Below are positions 4,732 through 16,675 of a DNA stretch of 64,000 bases, piece by piece. This DNA is from Cytophaga aurantiaca DSM 3654. GTDB taxonomy: Bacteria > Bacteroidota > Bacteroidia > Cytophagales > Cytophagaceae. Below the pieces are notes generated by a model that saw nothing but the letters and a program-made list of their open reading frames with translations, did not search any database and was not told the DNA's origin. Numbering within the stretch: the stretch's first letter is position 1; the number at the start of each line of letters is the position of its first letter. Position numbers and translations under genes: made by a program. The stretch covers positions 187,177-251,176 of the forward strand of contig NZ_KB903620.1 in the NCBI RefSeq assembly GCF_000379725.1, read 5' to 3'.

Positions 4732-5676
4732 TTATCTCCAATCTACAACATTGCCTCTATCTTTGGTTAACAGTGCTTTAGGGATAGATTTTTTTATTTC
4801 TTCTTCTAAAAGTACCAATAAACGTTTTTTAGAATAATTGCGGGTGTAGGCAAAGCTGACTTCACGCAAGGGAACCGTTTCAAATTGTTTGACTTTTGTT
4901 GTGACATCTTTGCTTAAAGTATCTACGGCCAATTCGGGTAATAAGGTAAACCCACCCTCCTTTTCAACAAACTTTTTGAGTGTTTCCAACGAACCACTTT
5001 CATACTCAAATGGCAATTCACTTCGTTTGGAGAGTTGATACGAACACAAGTTCATCACCTGTGAACGAAAGCAATGGCCTTTGCTAAGAAGCCACAGATC
5101 CGGACTTGCGATATCGGTTGTCTTCAATGTTTTTTTCTTAGCCAATGCATGATCTTTATGAATATACAGAACCACCTTTTCATAAAACAACGGCCGCTCT
5201 ATCACGCCGCTTTCATTTAAAGGAGTTACCAGAATCCCAACATCCAAGATGTCCTTCTTCAATTGCTGAATAATTTCTTCCGTCATCAGTTCGACAATTT
5301 TAACTTTCACCAATGGGTACTTCTGGGTAAACGCACCTATGAAAAGCGGCAACAGATAAGGCGCCAACGATGGGATAATACCAATGCTTAGTTCTCCGGA
5401 AACATCATTACTGTTTTCTTTTATCAGTTCCAGTATCTTTTTACTTTCTGCAAGGGTTATGCGCGCCTGAGCAATAATTTTTTCACCGACTTCTGTGGGC
5501 ACAATAGGTTGCTTCGTCCGATCGAAGATGATAACACCTAAGTCGTCTTCCAGCTTTTTTATCTGCATACTAAGCGTAGGCTGTGTGACAAAACATTTTT
5601 CCGATGCCGTAACAAAATGCCTGTAGGTATCTACCGCAATTATATATTCCAGTTGTGTAAGTGTAATGTTCATCAT
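4732..5676 (-). CDS. oxyR: Hydrogen-peroxide-sensing LysR-type regulator OxyR
   Basis: The 314-residue LysR-type regulator has an N-terminal winged HTH (residues 1-62, with VTQPTLSMQIKKLE) and a periplasmic-binding-protein-like effector domain. The region GHCFRSQVMNLC places Cys202 and Cys211 eight residues apart, matching the redox pair C199/C208 of E. coli OxyR, which form a disulfide on oxidation by peroxide. It is divergently transcribed from ahpC with about 107 bp between the starts, the classic arrangement for OxyR control of ahpC. An ATAG-N7-CTAT site lies just upstream of its own start. MMN gives two adjacent ATG codons, so the start is uncertain by one codon. Confidence 0.93.
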   Translation of the reverse strand: MMNITLTQLEYIIAVDTYRHFVTASEKCFVTQPTLSMQIKKLEDDLGVIIFDRTKQPIVPTEVGEKIIAQARITLAESKKILELIKENSNDVSGELSIGIIPSLAPYLLPLFIGAFTQKYPLVKVKIVELMTEEIIQQLKKDILDVGILVTPLNESGVIERPLFYEKVVLYIHKDHALAKKKTLKTTDIASPDLWLLSKGHCFRSQVMNLCSYQLSKRSELPFEYESGSLETLKKFVEKEGGFTLLPELAVDTLSKDVTTKVKQFETVPLREVSFAYTRNYSKKRLLVLLEEEIKKSIPKALLTKDRGNVVDWR

Positions 5677-5684
5677 AATTCAAT

Positions 5685-5699
5685 ATAGTTAAAATCTAT
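5685..5699. promoter_or_regulatory. Putative OxyR half-site ATAG-N7-CTAT
   Basis: ATAGTTAAAATCTAT matches one half of the OxyR consensus (ATAG-N7-CTAT, repeated after 7 nt). The next expected ATAG/CTAT pair is degenerate. The site sits 9 bp upstream of the oxyR start in the oxyR-ahpC divergent region, consistent with autoregulation and ahpC activation. Confidence 0.5.
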
Positions 5700-5719
5700 A
5701 CTATCATAAAAACAATCGA

Positions 5720-5751
5720 TTTGAATTATAGTTCAACATAACCCAAATTTG
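5720..5751 (+). promoter_or_regulatory. Candidate ahpC promoter (TTTG / CAAATTTG)
   Basis: TTTG at 5720-5723 and CAAATTTG at 5744-5751 (one mismatch to TAnnTTTG) are separated by 20 bp, within the Bacteroidota -33/-7 spacing. The -7 box ends 32 bp before the ahpC ATG. Confidence 0.45.
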
Positions 5752-5783
5752 TATCAATCAATTACACAAAAACATTCATCATT

Positions 5784-6341
5784 ATGCAAAATAGAATCTT
5801 AAGCGTGGGAAGTACATTCCCTGCATTCAAAAAAACAGCCGTAGTATCTATAGAAAAAGGAAAAGAATTTGCCGAGATCACTTCCGACAATCTGGTAAAT
5901 GAAAACAATCAATGGGCCGTTATGTTCTGGTGGCCAAAAGACTTTACGTTCGTTTGTCCTACCGAAATTGCAGAATTCAACAACGCATTCGGAGACTTCA
6001 GAGACAGAGATACTACACTTATAGGCGCTTCAACAGACTCTGAATTTGTGCACGCGGCATGGAGAAGAGATCACGAAGATCTGCGCGGATTAAAATTCCC
6101 AATGTTGGCAGATACTTCTAAATCATTGGCAGAAGAGTTAGGAATTCTTGAACCGAATGAAAAAGTTGCCTTACGTGCTACATTCATTATAGATCCACAA
6201 GGCATTATCCGTTGGGTTAGCGTAAATGATTTAAATGTAGGTAGAAATGTAAAAGAAGTGATCCGTGTATTGGATGCCCTACAAACAGATGAGCTATGCC
6301 CATGTAACTGGGAAAAGGGTCAGGAAACAATTCACGCATAG
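5784..6341 (+). CDS. ahpC: Alkyl hydroperoxide reductase AhpC (2-Cys peroxiredoxin)
   Basis: The 185-residue peroxiredoxin has the peroxidatic cysteine in FTFVCPTEIAEF (Cys58) and a C-terminal DELCPCNW motif (Cys172 and Cys174). The three-cysteine pattern matches the mycobacterial-type AhpC that is recycled by AhpD rather than by the flavoprotein AhpF. It reduces H2O2 and organic peroxides in the cytoplasm. ahpD follows 57 bp downstream, separated by a perfect hairpin, and oxyR is divergent upstream, so peroxide induction through OxyR is expected. Confidence 0.93.
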   Translation: MQNRILSVGSTFPAFKKTAVVSIEKGKEFAEITSDNLVNENNQWAVMFWWPKDFTFVCPTEIAEFNNAFGDFRDRDTTLIGASTDSEFVHAAWRRDHEDLRGLKFPMLADTSKSLAEELGILEPNEKVALRATFIIDPQGIIRWVSVNDLNVGRNVKEVIRVLDALQTDELCPCNWEKGQETIHA

Positions 6342-6346
6342 ATAAT

Positions 6347-6382
6347 TTCAGCGCATAGATTTATTGGACTCTATGCGCTGAA
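6347..6382 (+). other. Perfect hairpin between ahpC and ahpD
   Basis: TTCAGCGCATAGA (6347-6359) and TCTATGCGCTGAA (6370-6382) form a perfect 13-bp stem with a 10-nt loop. No T-run follows, so it is not a standard terminator. It may protect the ahpC 3' end or reduce read-through to ahpD. Confidence 0.7.
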
Positions 6383-6398
6383 TCTAAACAAGAAAATT

Positions 6399-6983
6399 AT
6401 GGTACAGGTAAATGAAACAACAGCTGAATTATTGCAGCTACTGAATATACAGGATGGTGTTACTCCAAATGTCTTGCAAATACTCAATGAGTCTGACGCA
6501 CGTTACATTCGTGATCTCAAAGTAAATGTTGGAAATGTATTGGTAACAACTCATCTTACTGAAAAAGAAAGTGCCTTGCTTGCATTATCTATTTCGGCCA
6601 ATCAGAAAAATAATATTTTGATTGCAGGCTTTCAAAAATTAGCAACAGAAAAAGAAGCTTCTGTAGAAGAACAAAACGAAGCGATCTCGTGTGCAAGTCT
6701 TCTTGCAGGCAACAATGTGTTCTACCGGTTCAGGCATTTTCAGCAAAAGGAATCATACAATACGATGCAGGCCAAAATCAAAATGAACATTATGATGAAG
6801 CCTGTACTTGGAAAAGAATTCTTTGAGTTAATGAGTCTTGCGATCAGCGCGGTTAATGGATGTGAAATGTGTGTGAATGCCCATGAACAATCTGTTAGAG
6901 AGCTGGGAGCAACAGAAGAACGTGTGTGGGACGCAATTCGTCTAGCTGCAGTAATTACAAGTTTAGATAAAATAATTTCATAA
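6399..6983 (+). CDS. ahpD: AhpD-like alkylhydroperoxidase (CMD family)
   Basis: This 194-residue all-helical protein carries the CMD/AhpD signature: NGCEMCVNAHEQSVRELG with Cys155, Cys158 and His162, plus a glutamate (Glu143) in FFELMSLAIS upstream. In M. tuberculosis AhpD the CxxC pair, a histidine and this glutamate form the catalytic relay that reduces AhpC, using lipoylated dihydrolipoamide acyltransferase as electron source. Adjacency to an AhpC with the matching cysteine pattern supports the same role here. It is the second gene of the ahpCD unit and ends at a bidirectional terminator. Confidence 0.9.
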   Translation: MVQVNETTAELLQLLNIQDGVTPNVLQILNESDARYIRDLKVNVGNVLVTTHLTEKESALLALSISANQKNNILIAGFQKLATEKEASVEEQNEAISCASLLAGNNVFYRFRHFQQKESYNTMQAKIKMNIMMKPVLGKEFFELMSLAISAVNGCEMCVNAHEQSVRELGATEERVWDAIRLAAVITSLDKIIS

Positions 6984-6985
6984 AT

Positions 6986-7019
6986 AAAAAGCGGAAGGTA
7001 TAACAGCCTTCCGCTTTTT
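6986..7019. terminator. Bidirectional terminator between ahpD and the SIR2-like gene
   Basis: AAAAAGCGGAAGG (6986-6998) and CCTTCCGCTTTTT (7007-7019) are perfect 13-bp arms with an 8-nt loop. The A and T tracts at both ends suit termination of both convergent genes. Confidence 0.9.
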
Positions 7020-7022
7020 ATT

Positions 7023-7907
7023 TTAAGAACGAATCTTCTTCAATACTTTTTCATAATAACCGATGCGATTGCCGTCATTCATCGGCAGACCGACAACTTC
7101 AACTCCGCAGGCCTTTAATAATTCTAATTTGTGCTTACTTGACAGTTCATATTTTTTTGGATAGTAATAACGAATCCGGTTTGTAATTGTTAATTTATTC
7201 GTCGCCTTCATGCGTGCCCGATAGGTAAGCAGCCACCAGAGGTGCACTTCAACAACATCCAGATTCAATCCAAAAATTTCAATATCGTGTGTGAAGAAAA
7301 AATCTACCCAACTAACATGCGTAATTTTATTCTTCTTAATCCGAAGTTCTAAAGGTGAAAATCGAACATCTTTATACGTATCTTTCGTTCCGGCAACAAC
7401 ATAATTGCGCATGTGTTGCAGATAACCGCCATAATGTTCGAAGCCCAACGTAATCGATTGGGGTTGAGCAGCACATCCATGGATGTGCCAGAAGTTTGTT
7501 TTACCGATTTGATTTTTCCGAAACAAACTGAACAACACTTCTTTTACACTACCGATATTGTGTATTTTTTTTACCGAACCGTTAACTGCTTCTTCCAGTG
7601 TAGAATCATAATTTGTCGTGAAAATATGCTGAACACCCATAGAAGCAATTGCATGATGAATGCTATTCGGCTTTAATAAGGCAATCTTTGAAGCAATAAA
7701 TTTTTTCAAGTCGTTTTCCTGAACCTTTCCCTCTGCCAATGTTTTTAAGATAATTTCCTCGTACACCAGCGGAAATGGTTTGTTCAGCATATTGGGCAAT
7801 GCTTTTAATCCGGTAAACTTCGTCAGATCTTTCAGCAGATTTTCCCAGCTATAACTTGCCGTTGCATTATTAATATCGTTGCCGATTAAAAAAACGGTAT
7901 TTTTCAT
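7023..7907 (-). CDS. SIR2-like domain protein
   Basis: This protein of about 294 residues (ATG at 7907-7905; an ATG three codons upstream is possible) starts with a Rossmann-type segment VFLIGNDINNATASYSWENLL. It then shows IFTTNYDSTLEEA, a HIHG motif, an ITLGFEHYGGYL segment and IFGLNLDVVEVHLWWLL near the C-terminus. These are the landmarks of SIR2_2-like NAD-binding proteins rather than classical deacetylases; no zinc-binding cysteine quartet is present. Proteins of this superfamily include NAD+-depleting antiphage effectors, but many standalone members are uncharacterised. It is monocistronic, and no partner (Argonaute, HerA, TIR or sensor) lies beside it. Function is unassigned. Confidence 0.7.
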   Translation of the reverse strand: MKNTVFLIGNDINNATASYSWENLLKDLTKFTGLKALPNMLNKPFPLVYEEIILKTLAEGKVQENDLKKFIASKIALLKPNSIHHAIASMGVQHIFTTNYDSTLEEAVNGSVKKIHNIGSVKEVLFSLFRKNQIGKTNFWHIHGCAAQPQSITLGFEHYGGYLQHMRNYVVAGTKDTYKDVRFSPLELRIKKNKITHVSWVDFFFTHDIEIFGLNLDVVEVHLWWLLTYRARMKATNKLTITNRIRYYYPKKYELSSKHKLELLKACGVEVVGLPMNDGNRIGYYEKVLKKIRS

Positions 7908-8061
7908 AACAATCAAATACGGATGTTTCCTCTACAAGTTGACACACTTTTACTATTCGTGTCTTTGATCCTAAATTATTTGTACAAAAGACCACAATAC
8001 GAAGATTTGATTTTTATTTGAAAAATAATTTAAGTATCATTAAGTATTAAAATAATCACAT

Positions 8062-8714: not shown

Positions 8715-9899
8715 TTACAACGGTATCACTACAAATACAAACGACAATACAGAAATAATAAATCCGAACATAAAAAAACTGTAAGCGATACGGAGCATCT
8801 TATATTTTTTGCCAAGCACCACACCTAAATGATATATATCACGGGTCATACTTCCGTATAAAAAATCATTATCATTCATTACCTGCTTAATACCCCATTC
8901 ATAATCTTCCAATTTCATTTTATAAAAATTTCCGAAGAATAATAAGTTCGCACGTTTCTTCTCAATATCTTCTTTGCTGAATACACCGCTTGTTACATTC
9001 GGACGGGTAACAAAAATTGAAAATACAATTGTTGTAAGCGATGTAAACAACAGCAACATGGTAGGAATCAAAAACCGCGGGTCGGTATCCAGCTTTCTAA
9101 ACAACACTGTTAACAATACAGATATGATGATGGAATTTACTGTGATCATGATGTTGGCTTTGTTGTCCGCCATCTCACTTAAGCGCAGGTGATTGGTTGA
9201 AGTCGTGCGGAACATCGTCTCCACACCTCTATTCACTTTCTCCTTATCTTTGTTTTTATCTTTATCTTCTTTGCCCGTTTCTTTCTTTGAATCTTCCATA
9301 TCTTTTTCTGCTTGTTTTTCTACTATTGCCTGAATGTTTTTTTCTAATCCCGGCTGAAGGATTTTTTTACAATAATCTGTCTTGTATGTTTGCTTCTTTA
9401 GAAAGATCAACGAAAAGGTTCGCCACTCCGAACCGCTAAGCTCTTTATTCAATAAGATCTCAACTTCTTTGCGAACTTTTTTATTGTTGTTTTTAAAATG
9501 ATCCGTTCCCAGATCATACAGATCGGCGTCGCAAATAATTTCTTCCAATAAATTAGTAGGGTTCTGCGGCATTTTTGTTGCCTGTATACAGCCTTCAATT
9601 TTTGAAATAAATTCTGCGCTTGCCTGTTCTTTTGATAAAAATTCTTTTGCAATTTTTATTGAAGCTTCTTCATGATTTTCTCTTCCGGAAATAAGATAAC
9701 CCACATCATGCAGCCATGCCGCAACAAGCACTACGGCAAGATCCTCTCCATGTAGTTTATAGTGTGCAGCAATTTCTGCTGCTGCTTTCACCGCATGTTC
9801 TGTATGTTCCAGATTATGATAATAAAGCTCTTTATCCGTATCCGCATAAAGTTTGCGAACATACTTTTCTGCTTTGTGTATCAATGATTCTTCATGCAT
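8715..9899 (-). CDS. HD-domain phosphohydrolase fused to a Pycsar-type (PycTM) membrane effector domain
   Basis: The 394-residue protein has two parts. Residues 1-195 form an HD domain: YYHNLEHTEHAV (His28, His32), WLHDVGYL (the HD pair at 64-65) and ICDADLYDLG (Asp126). A highly charged lysine/glutamate/aspartate linker (195-225) leads to residues 228-394, with MADNKANIMITVNSIIIS, two membrane spans (about 252-270, 276-297), a cytosolic stretch with NDNDFLYGSMTRDIYHLG, and a third span at 370-392. The second part matches the PycTM (formerly DUF5706) domain known from Pycsar antiphage effectors. HD domains typically hydrolyse nucleotides or cyclic nucleotides. No uridylate/cytidylate cyclase is adjacent. 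It is the last gene of a four-gene operon, 5 bp after the phosphoesterase gene. Confidence 0.82.
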   Translation of the reverse strand: MHEESLIHKAEKYVRKLYADTDKELYYHNLEHTEHAVKAAAEIAAHYKLHGEDLAVVLVAAWLHDVGYLISGRENHEEASIKIAKEFLSKEQASAEFISKIEGCIQATKMPQNPTNLLEEIICDADLYDLGTDHFKNNNKKVRKEVEILLNKELSGSEWRTFSLIFLKKQTYKTDYCKKILQPGLEKNIQAIVEKQAEKDMEDSKKETGKEDKDKNKDKEKVNRGVETMFRTTSTNHLRLSEMADNKANIMITVNSIIISVLLTVLFRKLDTDPRFLIPTMLLLFTSLTTIVFSIFVTRPNVTSGVFSKEDIEKKRANLLFFGNFYKMKLEDYEWGIKQVMNDNDFLYGSMTRDIYHLGVVLGKKYKMLRIAYSFFMFGFIISVLSFVFVVIPL

Positions 9900-9904
9900 A
9901 AAAA

Positions 9905-12900
9905 TTACAATTTAACGCCTAATGAAATATACGGCAATACGCCTTCTTTTGAACATCCAAGTGTCAGATTTACAACCAGCATTTTTGCTGGAGCGATATA
10001 AAAACCTCCTCCATAGCCATCATGCCATTGACCAGATTCTTCTCCGTGTGCCCATACTCTTCCAAGATCATTAAAAGCAATTAAGCCAATAGAGCCGGGG
10101 AAAAGATACGATGTAAAATCAAATAATTTTAAACGCATTTCGATGTTGTAAAAGAATTTGCTGTTTCCGGCAAAACGATAATTTCTATATCCTCTCAAAT
10201 TTGTACTTCCTCCTAAATAACACATTTGAAAATAGTACGGATCTCCCACATTAATGCCGCCGCCAAAATGATTGATAAGCACAAAACGTGGATCTTTATG
10301 AAAGCTTGTATACACAGTCATATCGGTTTCAAAACGACCGAAACGTTGATTGTGTTCGTCCAGTTGCTGCATGCCTGTAAGAAACGTATTCCAGTATACT
10401 CCGCGAATGGGCATGAATTCTGAATTCCGCGTGTCCAATTGAAATCCGCCGATCAATCCGGCAAATATTTTTTTTGTAAATACATTTTCATCCGGATTGG
10501 CGGCATCATACACATTGATATACCTTCCAACATTCTCCATCGAATCGGTTGCATAGTATTGTCCGATCAAGCCGCCATACACTTTAAACGTACGCGCAAA
10601 AGTATGTTCAAGTTTTATTTGAGCCGTAATCAAATTGTAACGTGTACGGTAATAGGTAATCGGTTGCTCACCCATTTTTATATACTGCGTTTCGTTCCCT
10701 ACACCAAAAAAGTTGGAAACGTTATCCGGTGCCCGTGCATCAAAATTAATTTTCAAATCATTTTTACCTATCACATTTACAAAGTGTCCATAGTATTTAA
10801 CATTGGTAGCTTTAGTAGCCAATGCATGACCAAGTAACAAGCGGTGTCTCTGTGCATACGGCTCTTTCCTAAAACCATATTTGGTGTACTGCAAACCCGC
10901 GCCTAACCATATTCCGTCATCTACATTGTATCCACCGCTTGCCTGTGGAAGCAATTGATTATATTTAAATGTGCGGCCGTTATACTCATTAATAGAAGGA
11001 TCTGTACTTTTATGAACAACTGCCTTTGACCATTTTGGAAATGCATTGTTTTTATCGGAACGATCATACACAACAATGTTTGTTCTGCTATGTATGGATT
11101 TTGAAATATTGAATGAATCTTTTTCCGCTCCTCCGATCATACGCACTTTAATGGATGATCGACCTTTGCCTGTTACATCAAACACATCATCGCCATCTCT
11201 TCCATACAAACGAATTTCTTTGGTTACTTTTTTATTGAATGTGCGTTCATAAAAAATATTCCCTTTACTTCCGTCTTTTTTGATTTTATAAACCTTTAGA
11301 ACGATATCTCCATGATTCTGATAATTCACTTCAAAATAATCGTCTTTATCTGAACCTGGAATTTCGACGGTATGTGCTAAAAAAGCATAATACTTCAATC
11401 CTTCTTTTAATAAAGCATTTCTTCGTGCAATTAAATTCGCGCGTATCTGTTCGCCATATTGTGCATATACGGTATCCGGCAATTGATTTACTGCAGCTGC
11501 TAAGATCGAATCTGTTAAGGTTTGCTGTACATGCTTCAATACAACGATCCATTCGGCTTCACTTAATTCATTCAAAAAGAAACGGTCGAAATATTTTGCA
11601 TTAAACATAAAGCCGTTCACATCTCTGATCTTGGCATCAAATCCCTGAATCTTTGGCATGATCCATTTACGTGCAGCAATGTATGGAAGTAGTCCGGAAT
11701 TTATAAAATACGTTTGATCCCGATCTCTTGGAATTGGCGAGTAAATATTTTTTTTGCCATCGACTCTTTTCTCCCATCGCCATTGGTCTTCATGCCGATC
11801 CCAATCGCCAATAAGCAGATCCAGCATACGCGCTGTGAGCACTGCCTTTTCATCAATGAGATTGTCGTTGTCTTCCTGAAGCTTTTCTAATACTTTAGCC
11901 GTGTTATATGTTTTTGCTCCATCATCTGATGCCGGTTCACGTTCTTCAAATACACATACGGTATTGGCAAACTCGGTTCGATAAATTCCTAAAGCAGGAT
12001 CATTCGGAACAAATACAATTTGAGGATTCGCATGTGGTACATTTAACTCTTCAGCAAGAATAGGAACTGTCAACGGTGCATAAGGCTGTGCTGCAGAGAT
12101 CTGATCCTGTACAATTGTTTTAGCTACTGTTCCGCGCAAATTGTCCGGCAATGCTTTTGCAGGATCTTTTTGAACCGTCCTCAACACCCATTCTTTACCT
12201 GTAGAATCAACCAGGCGCAACGATTTCGTTTGCTGTCCTCCTCCCTGTTGCAAAATTTCCAATCCTTCTTTTTGAATATAAAAGACTTTAAGTGTTACAG
12301 GTGTAGCCCATGACGTACGATAATTATCGCCAAACCAAAATCGATGTGCGTTGTTAACCTCATTGTATTCCGGAGCAATAGCAACTGTGATGCTATCTTG
12401 CTGAATACAGGCTATATTTTCAAGAGAAGCCGTTTTAGGTAATTGTACGATTGGTAAAATCGTGTCGTAAACAATCTTATAATTCGATTGTTCATCTACT
12501 GCATACATTATGATCTGCTCGCTGCCATCTGTTCTGTATACAACTTCAACAAAACCTCTTTGATCCGTTACGTAGGCAGCGTTCTTTCCTTTCTTAACCC
12601 GTTCTCTGTTAATGCCCGATCCACTGACAATATAATTTTGTTTGCCTTCCTGAATATGCTGTAAGGAATGATCGTGACCACCTGCATAGATTACATCCGG
12701 AGCAATAGACATGGCGTCTTCAATACGCTTCACCATGTTTCTGTATTCCGGGTGTTTCAGATCCTGAATGTTACCAAACGTGCCGCGTACCAATGGATAC
12801 AGTGAACCTAAAACAGGTAAAGGAATGTAGGCATTCTTTGACATTTCTGTAAAAGGAAAAATATGCTGCTTCCAGGTGTAGTAGCCACCATGAATACCAT

Positions 12901-13576
12901 AACTACGCATGGGCTGATGCGATGTGAAAACAATCCGTTTGTTTCTATTGCGATAGGCAATGTCTTTTAACGCATTAATTACATCGTCTTCGGTTTTGCA
13001 ATTGCAACCATTATCAATGCCCGGTTTTTCAAACGGATGCAGCCACCACTGTGTATCCAGTATCACGAACACCAGACTATCATTGATGTGGATCTCTTCC
13101 GGACCGGGACAACCTTCTTTGGGAAGAAAAAATATATTGTCTTGATGTAAACTATCTATCCACGCTGCTTCACGCTTAATCCGTTCCCAGCCTTCCGGAC
13201 CGCTTTTCTGCCAGTCGTGGTTGCCGGGGATCATATATACTTTTGCAGCATAAGACTCAAAAGGTAATAATTGCTTTGATAATACTTCTACATATTCTGC
13301 ATAATTATTATCTTCTTTATCAGGCAATCCCTTTTCATAAATATTGTCGCCGAGAAATAAGATCGTTGTTGTGCTATCTGATCTGTTTACATGATTTGCT
13401 ACAGCATCTGAAACAATGCTCTTTCCATTCAACAGTCTGCCTGCATCACCGATCAATATGAATCGATGAACAATGCCTGACGTATCTGTCTGAGCACATA
13501 CAGATGCAGAAAGGAATAATATCCCCGATAAAAAAATAAATTTCAGTATACGCACATGTTGCTTCAGTAAAAGCAT
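9905..13576 (-). CDS. Metallophosphoesterase / kinase-like / Omp85 beta-barrel fusion
   Basis: The start at 13576 gives 1223 residues with a signal peptide (ending SASVCAQ) and lies one base after the upstream stop (TGATATG), so translation is probably coupled; a longer start at 13633 is less likely. Residues about 33-350 are a calcineurin-like phosphoesterase with GDAGR (43), LGDNIY (75), IPGNHDW (117), TSHQP and GGHDH (299). Residues about 450-640 look kinase-like (CotH/FAM20/HipA style): WVLRTVQKD, then LLIGDWDRHEDQW (588) and PRDRDQ (616). The rest reads as an Omp85/surface-antigen barrel with GGSTNLRGYRNYRFAG and a terminal LPYISLGVKL. It should sit in the outer membrane with soluble enzyme domains attached. 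The kinase-like call is inference. Confidence 0.82.
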   Translation of the reverse strand: MLLLKQHVRILKFIFLSGILFLSASVCAQTDTSGIVHRFILIGDAGRLLNGKSIVSDAVANHVNRSDSTTTILFLGDNIYEKGLPDKEDNNYAEYVEVLSKQLLPFESYAAKVYMIPGNHDWQKSGPEGWERIKREAAWIDSLHQDNIFFLPKEGCPGPEEIHINDSLVFVILDTQWWLHPFEKPGIDNGCNCKTEDDVINALKDIAYRNRNKRIVFTSHQPMRSYGIHGGYYTWKQHIFPFTEMSKNAYIPLPVLGSLYPLVRGTFGNIQDLKHPEYRNMVKRIEDAMSIAPDVIYAGGHDHSLQHIQEGKQNYIVSGSGINRERVKKGKNAAYVTDQRGFVEVVYRTDGSEQIIMYAVDEQSNYKIVYDTILPIVQLPKTASLENIACIQQDSITVAIAPEYNEVNNAHRFWFGDNYRTSWATPVTLKVFYIQKEGLEILQQGGGQQTKSLRLVDSTGKEWVLRTVQKDPAKALPDNLRGTVAKTIVQDQISAAQPYAPLTVPILAEELNVPHANPQIVFVPNDPALGIYRTEFANTVCVFEEREPASDDGAKTYNTAKVLEKLQEDNDNLIDEKAVLTARMLDLLIGDWDRHEDQWRWEKRVDGKKNIYSPIPRDRDQTYFINSGLLPYIAARKWIMPKIQGFDAKIRDVNGFMFNAKYFDRFFLNELSEAEWIVVLKHVQQTLTDSILAAAVNQLPDTVYAQYGEQIRANLIARRNALLKEGLKYYAFLAHTVEIPGSDKDDYFEVNYQNHGDIVLKVYKIKKDGSKGNIFYERTFNKKVTKEIRLYGRDGDDVFDVTGKGRSSIKVRMIGGAEKDSFNISKSIHSRTNIVVYDRSDKNNAFPKWSKAVVHKSTDPSINEYNGRTFKYNQLLPQASGGYNVDDGIWLGAGLQYTKYGFRKEPYAQRHRLLLGHALATKATNVKYYGHFVNVIGKNDLKINFDARAPDNVSNFFGVGNETQYIKMGEQPITYYRTRYNLITAQIKLEHTFARTFKVYGGLIGQYYATDSMENVGRYINVYDAANPDENVFTKKIFAGLIGGFQLDTRNSEFMPIRGVYWNTFLTGMQQLDEHNQRFGRFETDMTVYTSFHKDPRFVLINHFGGGINVGDPYYFQMCYLGGSTNLRGYRNYRFAGNSKFFYNIEMRLKLFDFTSYLFPGSIGLIAFNDLGRVWAHGEESGQWHDGYGGGFYIAPAKMLVVNLTLGCSKEGVLPYISLGVKL

Positions 13577-13577
13577 A

Positions 13578-14396
13578 TCAATTAGATAAAATAGGTATTT
13601 GAATAAGTGTAGGCGATCCACCTCCGCCTTCATTTGTGATGTACAGATTTCCTGTTGGGTCGAATGTTATCCCTTCGGGTTGTAGAAAATACGTTCGATC
13701 CAATTCATATTCTGCAAGCAGTTTCCAGTCTGAATTTAATACGATCAATCGTTTTTCAATGGAAGCCAATAAATAAATATCTTTTGAAACAGGATGAATA
13801 GCAACTGCGGATGGGTGAAGCAGTGCGGTACTTTTTAAATCGCTCCAGGATAACACGTGTTCTTTTTTATTGGCATATGTTCCATCCGACGCATTTATAG
13901 TATAGGTAACCGTCTGCTTTTCTTTCGCACCCGTTTTCGAATGTTTCGGAATCAATACTACTGTGTTTGATACAACATCGACATAAAATGATTCATACTC
14001 GGCTTTAGGACCTGTATAGGAAAGTATTTCCAGTGTGCCGTCAAAGTTCAGTTTATAGATTTTACCATCACTGCGCAAAATATAGATCGTCTTTTCATAC
14101 ACTTGGATTTCTTCGTAGTCTCCTGCATCTTCAAAATCAAATTTATTTGTAATGCGGAAGTTTTGAGGATCTAACAAATACATAATGCCTTTTTCATCGT
14201 TAACTGCTACAAATGAATTTGAATCTGCCCAATATGCTATGCCGGAAATCTCTTTTAAGGGATGCTCCAACTCCACTTGCTTCATTTGAGCATAATCATA
14301 TCCTTTAATATTGATGGGAGCATTTTTATCTGCAGCGCAGGCAGCTAACAAAACAATCGAACAAAAAAACTGAATGTATTTTTTTCTAAAAATCAT
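13578..14396 (-). CDS. Lipoprotein with SdiA-regulated-type beta-propeller
   Basis: The 272-residue protein starts with a lipoprotein signal (SIVLLAAC, lipidated Cys near 20). The mature part has beta-propeller features: LKEISGIAYWADSNSFVAVNDE, YLLDP, EILSYTGPKAEYESFYVD, and a final LQPEGITFDPTGNLYITNEGG. This pattern matches the SdiA-regulated/SMP30-like propeller family, whose biochemical role is generally unknown. It overlaps the GAF-protein gene by 4 bp (ATGA) upstream and is followed after 1 bp by the phosphoesterase-barrel gene, so the three are translationally linked. A periplasmic partner role for the barrel protein is plausible but unproven. Confidence 0.78.
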   Translation of the reverse strand: MIFRKKYIQFFCSIVLLAACAADKNAPINIKGYDYAQMKQVELEHPLKEISGIAYWADSNSFVAVNDEKGIMYLLDPQNFRITNKFDFEDAGDYEEIQVYEKTIYILRSDGKIYKLNFDGTLEILSYTGPKAEYESFYVDVVSNTVVLIPKHSKTGAKEKQTVTYTINASDGTYANKKEHVLSWSDLKSTALLHPSAVAIHPVSKDIYLLASIEKRLIVLNSDWKLLAEYELDRTYFLQPEGITFDPTGNLYITNEGGGGSPTLIQIPILSN

Positions 14397-16675
14397 ATGT
14401 TTTTTCCTTTCATTGTTACCCGAATGGCTTTTAATCCAACGACCCCTTGCAGATCTTCCAGATCTAAATATTCAACTTCTTGCATAAGAAGCCCTTGTTG
14501 AATATACTTTTGAATTGCTTGTGCATACACATCAATTTCGCTTGCATATAAATATACAATCGCAATTTTGTTCGGCTGCGTCAGGCGTTCTTTGGTATTC
14601 AATACGCTGACTTTATCAATTCGTTTTTTTATAACTTCATATCGAATGCTGTATGAACCTTCTACGTCAAACCGATGTTCGTCTGCCCTGAAACGAATAT
14701 CAAGCGGACTTGTATGTGCAAGGATCAATTGCGTTGTCTCTAGTTTATAGGGAAGTTTATCATGTAACGACGCAGCAATCAATCCCATGTTCAGCATGGT
14801 ATCAAGTTCCCATTCTTTTATTTTCAGAATCATTTCGTCTGTAACAACAATATCCGGACTCAATGATTGGCCTGCATAGATTGTATATTCCCAGCCGTCT
14901 GTTCTGAATTTATCAAAGTAAACCGGAATGCTTTTTTTCAGCTTTTGCTCTTGAGTATCCAATACATCTTTCAAAGCATTATTGATACTGAAAAGGCTTT
15001 GTTCATAATTGATTTCCTCTTCATGCAAAAAATCCATTTCTATTTCGGCATCCGGATAATTATCCAACAAATCCTGCGATGCCTTTTCAATAAATAACCG
15101 GAGGTTTAATTCCTGTTCATCTGCAAGCGGATTTTCAATGGTGTCTTTCCATTGTCTCAGATCTTTCTTAGAAGTAGTTTTCGTATCTCCATACTTCGAA
15201 AGAATTTTTTCAACTTTCTTTAAATGATCTTTTGAATCCTTTCTTAAAGCCTTTTGTCGGGCAACAGAAGAATTTTTTATATCAATGGCCCCATAAAAAG
15301 GTGTAAGTTCTTTAAATGAAATATCCGGCAACTTTGCATTGGGAGCCTTTTGCATGGTGTTCCACGCAACTTCATTGAACTTCCATTCTACTGCCGGCTG
15401 AATCGCTGTGTAATTATGCATGATGAATGATTCCATCTGCTCATGCAGTTTATTGGTTTGGTAAACAATAAACTCAGCAAACATCGGCATAGCAGATTCT
15501 ATCTTGCGTACATCTTCCGCTGTAACCTGTTCATTTTCATAACTTGCCAACTCGATGATACCAACCAGGTCTTGTTGGTGAAATACCGGAATAATAGAAA
15601 AATTTTTAACGCCTTCTTCTTTTAAATAATTTTTAAGTTCGTCACATACTTCATTGGATGGTTCTTTGAATATCTGAATAGGGAATTCATATGCTTCGAT
15701 ACACATGTCAATAAAACGTCCTAAAAATTCATTCAATTCGGCAGTCGACAAATGCTTCTGTAATATTTTAAATAGTATACTTGAATAATTAAACGACTTA
15801 TGATAAAATATTTTTTTATTGATATCAATGAGCGGAAGAATTCCTACTTCAAGATCTTTTTTCTGTAATAATGAAAGTGTATTGTTCTTGATCTGTATGA
15901 AGGTGTCTTTGCGAGACAGGGTATGCATGGTAGCTACATTGTCACTTAATTGATTGAGGGATTCAAAGAGGGTTTCATCTTTAATTGTAAATAAGATGAA
16001 ACCCTCTAAACCAAAACCCGCAAGCGGTAATTGATCTTTCATTTCTTTAATGGATTGAATATTTCCTTTGGCATATTCGATCCATTCGTCATTTAATTCC
16101 GGAAGTGTCCCCGCATAATTAATTTGTACAAACTGATTGTTTGTTATAAAATGATAATGACGCTTAAACCCTTCACTATCGTCTGTTAAACGCAGCAGCG
16201 TTTGTGATGAATCCAATGCAATATCATTGATCCCATAACATTTATATAGAATATCTCTATACAATCGTCTTGCATATTCTTCATTTACGAAACTATCGTG
16301 CAAATGCAGTTTTAAATTTCCATCGGTATCTGAAATGAGTTGCTTAAACTCTTTTGAATAAGAAAAAAACTTCATCGGTGACGAAGGAGTGCCGATTGCA
16401 TACAGATGATTTGTACCCTGAGAAGGAATGTGATTGATGTGAATCAGATTGATCAGGTCAGTGAACGGATCAAGTACCGACCAGTTTTTTATTGGTTCAA
16501 GCAATACAGGGTTTGCATATAATATTTCAGCAATAGATTTAAGATATGACTTGTAAATAAAATTGTCTGATTCCTTTATCTGCGTTTCAATAAAATTCAA
16601 ATACGGCTTAAAAGATAACTCCCAATGCAGTGAAAAGGCAAAGCGAAAAGGAACATTAACTGATAGCGTTTTCAA
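14393..16675 (-). CDS. Large GAF-like domain protein, cytosolic
   Basis: The 760-residue protein has no signal peptide or membrane span. The central part, about residues 270-400, resembles a GAF domain (FSIIPVFHQQDLVGIIELAS followed by an acidic helix). The N-terminal 250 and C-terminal 300 residues are unrecognised; the latter is rich in charged helices and ends with a mixed alpha/beta segment. No histidine kinase, GGDEF or other output domain is visible, so it may be a sensor/scaffold using a novel output. It is the first gene of the tight operon with the lipoprotein, the phosphoesterase-barrel and the HD-PycTM genes, overlapping the second gene by 4 bp. Confidence 0.6.
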   Translation of the reverse strand: MKTLSVNVPFRFAFSLHWELSFKPYLNFIETQIKESDNFIYKSYLKSIAEILYANPVLLEPIKNWSVLDPFTDLINLIHINHIPSQGTNHLYAIGTPSSPMKFFSYSKEFKQLISDTDGNLKLHLHDSFVNEEYARRLYRDILYKCYGINDIALDSSQTLLRLTDDSEGFKRHYHFITNNQFVQINYAGTLPELNDEWIEYAKGNIQSIKEMKDQLPLAGFGLEGFILFTIKDETLFESLNQLSDNVATMHTLSRKDTFIQIKNNTLSLLQKKDLEVGILPLIDINKKIFYHKSFNYSSILFKILQKHLSTAELNEFLGRFIDMCIEAYEFPIQIFKEPSNEVCDELKNYLKEEGVKNFSIIPVFHQQDLVGIIELASYENEQVTAEDVRKIESAMPMFAEFIVYQTNKLHEQMESFIMHNYTAIQPAVEWKFNEVAWNTMQKAPNAKLPDISFKELTPFYGAIDIKNSSVARQKALRKDSKDHLKKVEKILSKYGDTKTTSKKDLRQWKDTIENPLADEQELNLRLFIEKASQDLLDNYPDAEIEMDFLHEEEINYEQSLFSINNALKDVLDTQEQKLKKSIPVYFDKFRTDGWEYTIYAGQSLSPDIVVTDEMILKIKEWELDTMLNMGLIAASLHDKLPYKLETTQLILAHTSPLDIRFRADEHRFDVEGSYSIRYEVIKKRIDKVSVLNTKERLTQPNKIAIVYLYASEIDVYAQAIQKYIQQGLLMQEVEYLDLEDLQGVVGLKAIRVTMKGKNI

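Follow-up and report, generated by a model that had tools for sequence, protein, structure and literature searches.

A predicted kinase-fold module between a phosphatase-like domain and an Omp85 barrel in a fusion protein of Cytophaga aurantiaca and its relatives

Gene, module order and the phosphatase-like module

The window analysed here is a 64,000-nucleotide stretch of the Cytophaga aurantiaca DSM 3654 genome (contig NZ_KB903620.1, positions 187,177–251,176). On its minus strand, at 9905–13576, lies a single gene in which a phosphatase-like module, a kinase-fold module and an Omp85 beta-barrel are fused, encoding 1223 residues from an ATG at 13576. The first ATG of the open reading frame (ORF) is at 13633; since the TGA of the upstream gene occupies 13580–13578 and the ATG at 13576 follows one base on, 13576 is the likely start. 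The original prediction, which gave no strand, had the same coordinate. Residue numbers below refer to the 1242-residue ORF that begins at 13633, and 19 is subtracted for the start at 13576. A near-full-length relative from the same genus is 82% identical.

From the N-terminus, the module order is an exported phosphatase-like module, a kinase-fold module, a small beta domain and a 16-strand Omp85 barrel that lacks POTRA domains, as judged from Pfam and structural models. A Pfam scan of the protein gave PF00149 (Metallophos) at residues 57–252 (E = 1.8e-6) and PF01103 (Omp85) at residues 998–1205 (E = 4.1e-11), each of which passes its curated cut-off; it found nothing between 252 and 998, and no POTRA up to an E of 1. 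A putative signal peptide (13493–13576) was placed by eye and by hydrophobicity (Kyte–Doolittle, maximum 2.38 over 12 residues). The three modules originally proposed for one protein are all present, as two Pfam-recognised ends and a middle that is modelled as a kinase fold.

The first module (12524–13486) was delimited by Pfam, by a match to PDB sequences and by conserved positions. Among PDB sequences, the best match to the N-terminal part is purple (tartrate-resistant) acid phosphatase (E = 2.3e-5); PF00149 scores 29 bits against a cut-off of 21.5. The protein has D63, D96, Y99, N138, H139, H239, H320 and H322, eight positions that correspond to the purple acid phosphatase active site, including the tyrosine of GDNxY. 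With both the PF00149 match and the conserved positions, the N-terminal module is assigned on its sequence as a purple-acid-phosphatase-like, calcineurin-like phosphoesterase.

Fold and conserved residues of the middle module

The middle module (residues 447–752; 11378–12295) was delimited by its AlphaFold model, Foldseek and VIA-align. The AlphaFold2 model, built from an 84-sequence alignment of residues 408–872, has a mean predicted local distance difference test (pLDDT) score of 94.9 and a predicted template-modelling (pTM) score of 0.93. In a Foldseek search of the PDB the best match is CtkA (E = 3.2e-6), and the first 13 rows comprise CtkA, a HipT, HipA and other bacterial kinases. Later rows hold CotH (E = 7.9e-4), PI4KII (E = 1.9e-3) and a Golgi casein kinase (E = 2.2e-3) that we take to be a Fam20 protein; other kinase types (Rio2, Wee1 and COQ8A) are also in the list. 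VIA-align, in which rows within 1 Z unit were counted as tied, matched the model to PI4KII-beta (Z 14.7, 257 aligned, root-mean-square deviation (rmsd) 4.4, 8% identity), CotH (Z 14.1, 249 aligned, rmsd 4.1, 14%), CtkA (Z 13.2, 240 aligned, rmsd 4.7, 12%), PI3K-type and PIKK kinases (Z 11–12), HipA (Z 11.0, 217 aligned, rmsd 4.1, 13%) and hydra Fam20 (Z 10.8, 219 aligned, rmsd 4.3, 10%). These matches mostly span model residues 40–345, corresponding to protein residues 447–752. By its model, the middle module is a two-lobed kinase fold of the protein-kinase-like superfamily. The original prediction had suspected a kinase-like region at 440–660 and proposed a structure prediction compared with CotH, FAM20 and HipA. 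The prediction returned a kinase fold, with CtkA, PI4KII, CotH, HipA and Fam20 among the leading matches; the extent needed correction, as the module is larger, at about 447–752 (428–733 in the earlier numbering).

The motifs occur in the order expected of such a fold. In the model, GGG (464–466; 12236–12244) lies between strands beta1 and beta2 of the N-lobe, GDWDRHEDQW (609–618; 11780–11809) follows a long helix, and PRDRDQ (635–640; 11714–11731) follows a beta hairpin. Placed by secondary-structure order, GGG, DxDRH (DWDRH at 610–614) and DRD (637–639) would be the Gly-rich loop, the catalytic loop and the DFG-like motif, respectively. E563 is at the end of a modelled strand that may form the hinge.

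Conservation was counted in 154 sequences including that of the window, each covering at least 250 model positions, after copies of the window gene (L001 and L111) and identical segments had been dropped; six of the ORFs are cut at the start of their locus (four labelled kinase–beta–barrel and two three-module) and one is cut at the end. In the N-lobe, G464 is kept in 148 sequences and G465, R485 and K489 in 149 each; E563 is kept in 151. Within GDWDRHEDQW the counts are 152 for D610, 146 for D612, 150 for R613, 146 for H614 and 148 for Q617, and within PRDRDQ they are 151 for D637 and 150 for D639. Conservation on this scale rules out the motifs as chance strings. It also answers the question, raised with the original prediction, of whether the putative catalytic aspartates are conserved: D610, D612, D637 and D639 are near-invariant.

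By sequence, the module had no significant match in Pfam, NCBIfam or the PDB. A Pfam scan of 84 middle modules returned weak, scattered matches to 38 families. Among the 25 of these families that were listed, there was no kinase-domain family, CotH (PF08757) and Fam20C were both absent, and the sole kinase-related name was KELK, which denotes a small accessory domain and was matched by a single member (E = 0.096). Fam20C was also absent from the Pfam scan of the window protein. A PDB profile search gave weak matches in which the only kinase was CtkA (E = 0.35), over the DRH motif. Profile comparisons with hhalign found no similarity to 15 CotH proteins (probability 0.10%, E = 0.55) or to 16 HipA (PF07804) proteins (probability 0.31%, E = 0.2), all from the same taxonomic order, which rules out membership in either family by sequence. 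Given no CotH or HipA profile similarity, no Pfam kinase family and CtkA only at an E of 0.35, the module is therefore predicted to be a kinase-fold family of its own, fold-related to the PI4KII/HipA/CotH/Fam20 group. With CotH, FAM20 and HipA, the proteins first suggested for comparison, the likeness holds for the fold; it fails for sequence-level membership in CotH or HipA.

Membrane topology, export and family architectures

The C-terminal barrel (residues 893–1240; 9914–10957) was delimited by Pfam and by a model of residues 745–1242 (pLDDT 91.7, pTM 0.85). The model has 16 long strands from residue 893, with LRGY (1146–1149) between strands 11 and 12, the L6 position, in which Omp85 proteins have their RGY motif. 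BamA and TamA match the barrel structurally (Z 27; Foldseek E = 2.4e-12). The model shows only beta structure in the segment that precedes the barrel, and the beta-rich linker domain (residues 755–866; 11036–11371), drawn on the model, has no Pfam family match. With 16 modelled strands and the RGY motif in L6, we assign the barrel to the Omp85 superfamily.

Barrels of this kind have L6 outside the cell and the N-terminus in the periplasm. The enzyme domain of PlpD, a patatin–Omp85 protein, is reported to be periplasmic (PMC11116518). Because of the predicted topology, with LRGY in L6, and the PlpD precedent, both enzyme modules should face the periplasm. A surface or a periplasmic setting had been envisaged at the outset; the periplasm is retained, and surface display of the enzymes is rejected on the predicted barrel topology together with the PlpD precedent.

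Export was assessed with a crude hydrophobicity measure, a hydrophobic N-terminal segment of at least 1.8 over 12 residues, in ORFs with an uncut start other than the window gene. Of 147 family members, 138 have such a segment, against 12 of 119 neighbour proteins of clusters A, C and D; in cluster B, whose members are probable lipoproteins, 50 of 51 have it (the window's own clusters are described below). Several kinase–beta proteins start lipobox-like, and each of the five kinase-only proteins has a membrane segment at its N-terminus. A cytosolic kinase is rejected on these export signals.

Eighty-five of the 154 sequences are phosphatase–kinase–beta–barrel fusions. All eight phosphatase positions are intact in 83 of them, four kinase residues in 84 and both sets in 83; the two exceptions are L017, in which the phosphatase positions are lost in the alignment and the kinase residues kept, and the second gene of L102, in which both are degenerate. 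The other architectures are kinase–beta–barrel (53, kinase residues intact in 48), kinase–beta (10, intact in 8), kinase alone (5, intact in all 5) and kinase–barrel (1, not intact). Four of the 53 kinase–beta–barrel ORFs are start-cut at a locus edge and could carry a phosphatase. One of the ten counted as kinase–beta, L038, is part of a broken gene: at 4911–7496 of this Pontibacter ramchanderi locus, a kinase–beta–barrel gene is interrupted by a stop and reads as two ORFs, through a broken gene or a sequencing error.

The kinase-alone proteins are five genes from five genomes of one family (L141–L145), and they have a common C-terminal CF(D/E)C motif. Among their neighbours some families are common to pairs of loci and none to all five, and the Pfam names give no hint of a substrate. 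A split version occurs in two genomes of one genus (L155 and L156, with Pfam run on L156), where kinase–beta, phosphatase and Omp85 barrel are three consecutive genes on the same strand. The kinase and phosphatase proteins there have lipobox-like N-termini and the barrel protein a signal-peptide-like one; outer-membrane efflux, ABC and ABC2 genes lie before the set, separated from it by one extra ORF in L155, and MgtE lies after it.

On a first quick tree of the kinase module, the phosphatase is gained or lost in 12 changes. A second quick tree, cleaned of the six start-cut ORFs and three long branches, has nine, of which seven are forced by well-supported branches. These repeated gains and losses rule out a single ancestral three-module gene without later changes. 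The fusion, the adjacency in split loci and the joint retention of residues argue that the modules work together.

The family is widespread. A match was found in 115 of 296 genomes sampled across Bacteroidota, a few of them remote or partial, and a search of 59 relatives with the full protein gave some match in 32, including similarity to the barrel or the phosphatase only. The loci include Spirosoma, Siphonobacter, Pontibacter, Chitinophaga, Pedobacter, Mucilaginibacter and Algoriphagus.

Proposed activity, gene neighbourhood and known systems

The reading that we favour, with roughly even confidence, is that the protein is an outer-membrane-anchored, periplasm-facing enzyme that phosphorylates and dephosphorylates an envelope substrate. 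The Omp85 barrel would anchor it in the outer membrane, with the enzymes in the place that POTRA domains have in other Omp85 proteins. On the periplasmic side, the kinase-fold module would pass a phosphoryl group to the envelope substrate, and the purple-acid-phosphatase-like module would take phosphate off the same or a linked substrate. A cytosolic protein would be a less likely substrate than a lipid or some other molecule of the envelope.

Several points weigh against this reading. A kinase fold alone is no proof of kinase activity, and ATP is not expected in the periplasm. An earlier view, quoted in PMC4104836, has PlpD bring its enzyme domain to the surface, which leaves some doubt about a topology drawn by analogy. 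The Foldseek TM-scores are low, at about 0.2–0.5, and the beta3 lysine is ambiguous: the third N-lobe strand holds an arginine (R485), with K489 just after the strand. Nine of the 154 members are without at least one of K489, D612 and D637: D612 is replaced in L018, in the second gene of L102 and in one gene each of L153 and L154, the remote L148–L151 are degenerate in kinase residues, and L095 fails merely because it is cut at the locus end. Because of these losses a few paralogues look like pseudokinases, and L018, L102, L148–L151, L153 and L154 possibly include such non-catalytic members. More generally, the modules, fold, residues, export, topology and linkage come from prediction and comparison, and from these we infer catalysis, coupling, substrate and donor.

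The degenerate paralogues and the expected lack of periplasmic ATP would both suit a silent kinase fold that acts as a nucleotide or lipid sensor controlling the phosphatase or the barrel, and kinase-like folds with regulatory roles are known. We consider such a sensor quite unlikely, as the near-invariance of D610, D612, D637 and D639 across the 154 sequences exceeds the needs of a fold.

The genes around the fusion bear on its role. On the minus strand of the window the order is cluster C, cluster B, the fusion and cluster A, and the four are probably co-transcribed because they overlap or are separated by gaps of at most five bases. The cluster C gene (14393–16675) encodes a 760-residue protein without a Pfam match (members are about 800 residues long; a relative matches GAF weakly, under the cut-off). 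Next to the fusion upstream, the cluster B gene (13578–14396) encodes an SdiA-regulated family protein by Pfam, with a weak phytase-like match under the cut-off, that is by eye a probable lipoprotein. Downstream, the cluster A gene (8715–9899) encodes by Pfam an HD domain with a PycTM membrane domain; PycTM is named after Pycsar effectors, and the protein may be a relative of the Pycsar effector module with a housekeeping role. Farther along the minus strand, at 7023–7916, is a protein whose N-terminal part we take by eye to be SIR2-like.

Neighbours were counted in the best 80 of 592 relatives, divided by ORF length into 46 three-module and 34 two-module loci, with flanks of up to 5 kb; the sample is non-random, includes near relatives and holds some loci that are cut short. 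Cluster names come from the Pfam matches of one representative per cluster and of the window's A and B proteins. Clusters A, B and C occur in 40, 37 and 34 of the three-module loci, PPK1 in 22, a class III cyclase in 8 and PAP2 in 6; the two-module loci have 4, 4, 12, 6, 1 and 0, respectively. By our estimate, well under 1% of randomly placed loci would have a single-copy gene such as PPK1 within 10 kb.

The members of this set with phosphate-related names in three-module loci (PPK1, the SdiA-regulated/phytase-like protein, HD-PycTM and PAP2) would fit phosphate scavenging. In that case the phosphatase would be the working enzyme, the kinase fold would only bind or pass on a phosphorylated compound such as a nucleotide, inositol phosphate or polyphosphate, and the barrel would be an anchor or channel. 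We regard this as unlikely: all but one of the 85 fusions have intact kinase residues, as do 48 of the 53 kinase–beta–barrel ORFs in which no phosphatase was found (four of them start-cut), and the kinase part also stands alone in the five genes described above.

A further alternative is that the kinase fold carries out another transfer, such as AMPylation or glutamylation, or a phosphoryl transfer in which polyphosphate or a lipid-linked molecule takes the place of ATP as the donor. SelO and SidJ are examples of kinase folds with a different chemistry, PPK1 is often nearby and ATP is not expected at the site. The only PPK1 match in the window's genome is, however, on another contig, outside the window neighbourhood, and nothing in the motifs points to another chemistry; we hold this alternative to be quite unlikely. 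Also rather unlikely in our view is the broadest form of the favoured reading, a phylum-wide Bacteroidota outer-membrane switch in which a new kinase family and an opposing phosphatase act on envelope lipids or proteins with a donor other than cytosolic ATP, such as exported polyphosphate or a nucleotide.

With a periplasmic phosphorylation and dephosphorylation enzyme as the favoured reading, a lipid substrate is worth testing. This suggestion is drawn by analogy from the PI4KII resemblance, from nearby APP1 and PAP2 phosphatases and from a Legionella kinome survey that groups new families with FAM20/CotH and suggests lipid substrates for them (PMC9758233). Among 32 loci examined, an APP1-type phosphatidate phosphatase is in the flanks of three (L141, L153 and L154, with kinase-only or kinase–beta genes), which is a lead for a lipid substrate and no proof of one.

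The overall structural reading of the original prediction, phosphatase, kinase-like fold and Omp85 barrel, is upheld by the model, the fold matches and the conservation. In a widespread outer-membrane protein, a region without any Pfam assignment thereby receives a predicted fold and a putative active site, and phosphorylation chemistry in the Bacteroidota periplasm becomes a testable proposal. The protein may attach phosphate groups and take them off again beyond the inner membrane, in a setting that normally offers no ATP. If the module is active, the source of the phosphoryl donor and the envelope molecule that is modified become directly testable questions.

Part of this architecture has been reported. 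Heinz & Lithgow 2014 (PMC4104836) describe POTRA-less Omp85 subfamilies and place among these non-POTRA architectures a 'Metallo' subfamily with PF00149 ahead of the barrel, its PF00149 domain read as a metalloprotease. Word-start searches of its main text for 'kinase' and 'phosph' found nothing, and word searches of two recent Bacteroidota envelope papers (PMC12045153 and PMC12611786) for kinase, phosphatase, phosphoesterase and metallophos also found nothing. In literature searches conducted outside subscription papers, preprints and supplements, we recognised no description of the kinase module. The phosphoesterase–Omp85 fusion has thus been known since 2014, and the kinase module is undescribed within the literature searched. 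The 'Metallo' subfamily is likely the family of the window protein. The present analysis suggests that at least part of the Omp85 class earlier interpreted as 'metalloprotease' is a phosphatase–kinase class.

Several known systems each resemble one part of the protein. Purple acid phosphatase shares the sequence match and the eight conserved positions with the N-terminal module, which differs in being part of a fusion. The 'Metallo' Omp85 proteins of PMC4104836 share the PF00149 domain and an Omp85 barrel without POTRA. PlpD (PMC11116518) likewise has an enzyme domain, reported to be periplasmic, on an Omp85 barrel; it carries a patatin-like phospholipase domain, whereas the window protein carries phosphatase and kinase modules. 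The atypical kinases PI4KII, CotH, CtkA, HipA and Fam20 share the predicted fold and the motif order with the middle module. The window family differs from them in its export signals, present in most members, and in its fusion to a phosphatase and a barrel, and from CotH and HipA in having neither profile-level similarity to them nor a significant Pfam kinase match.

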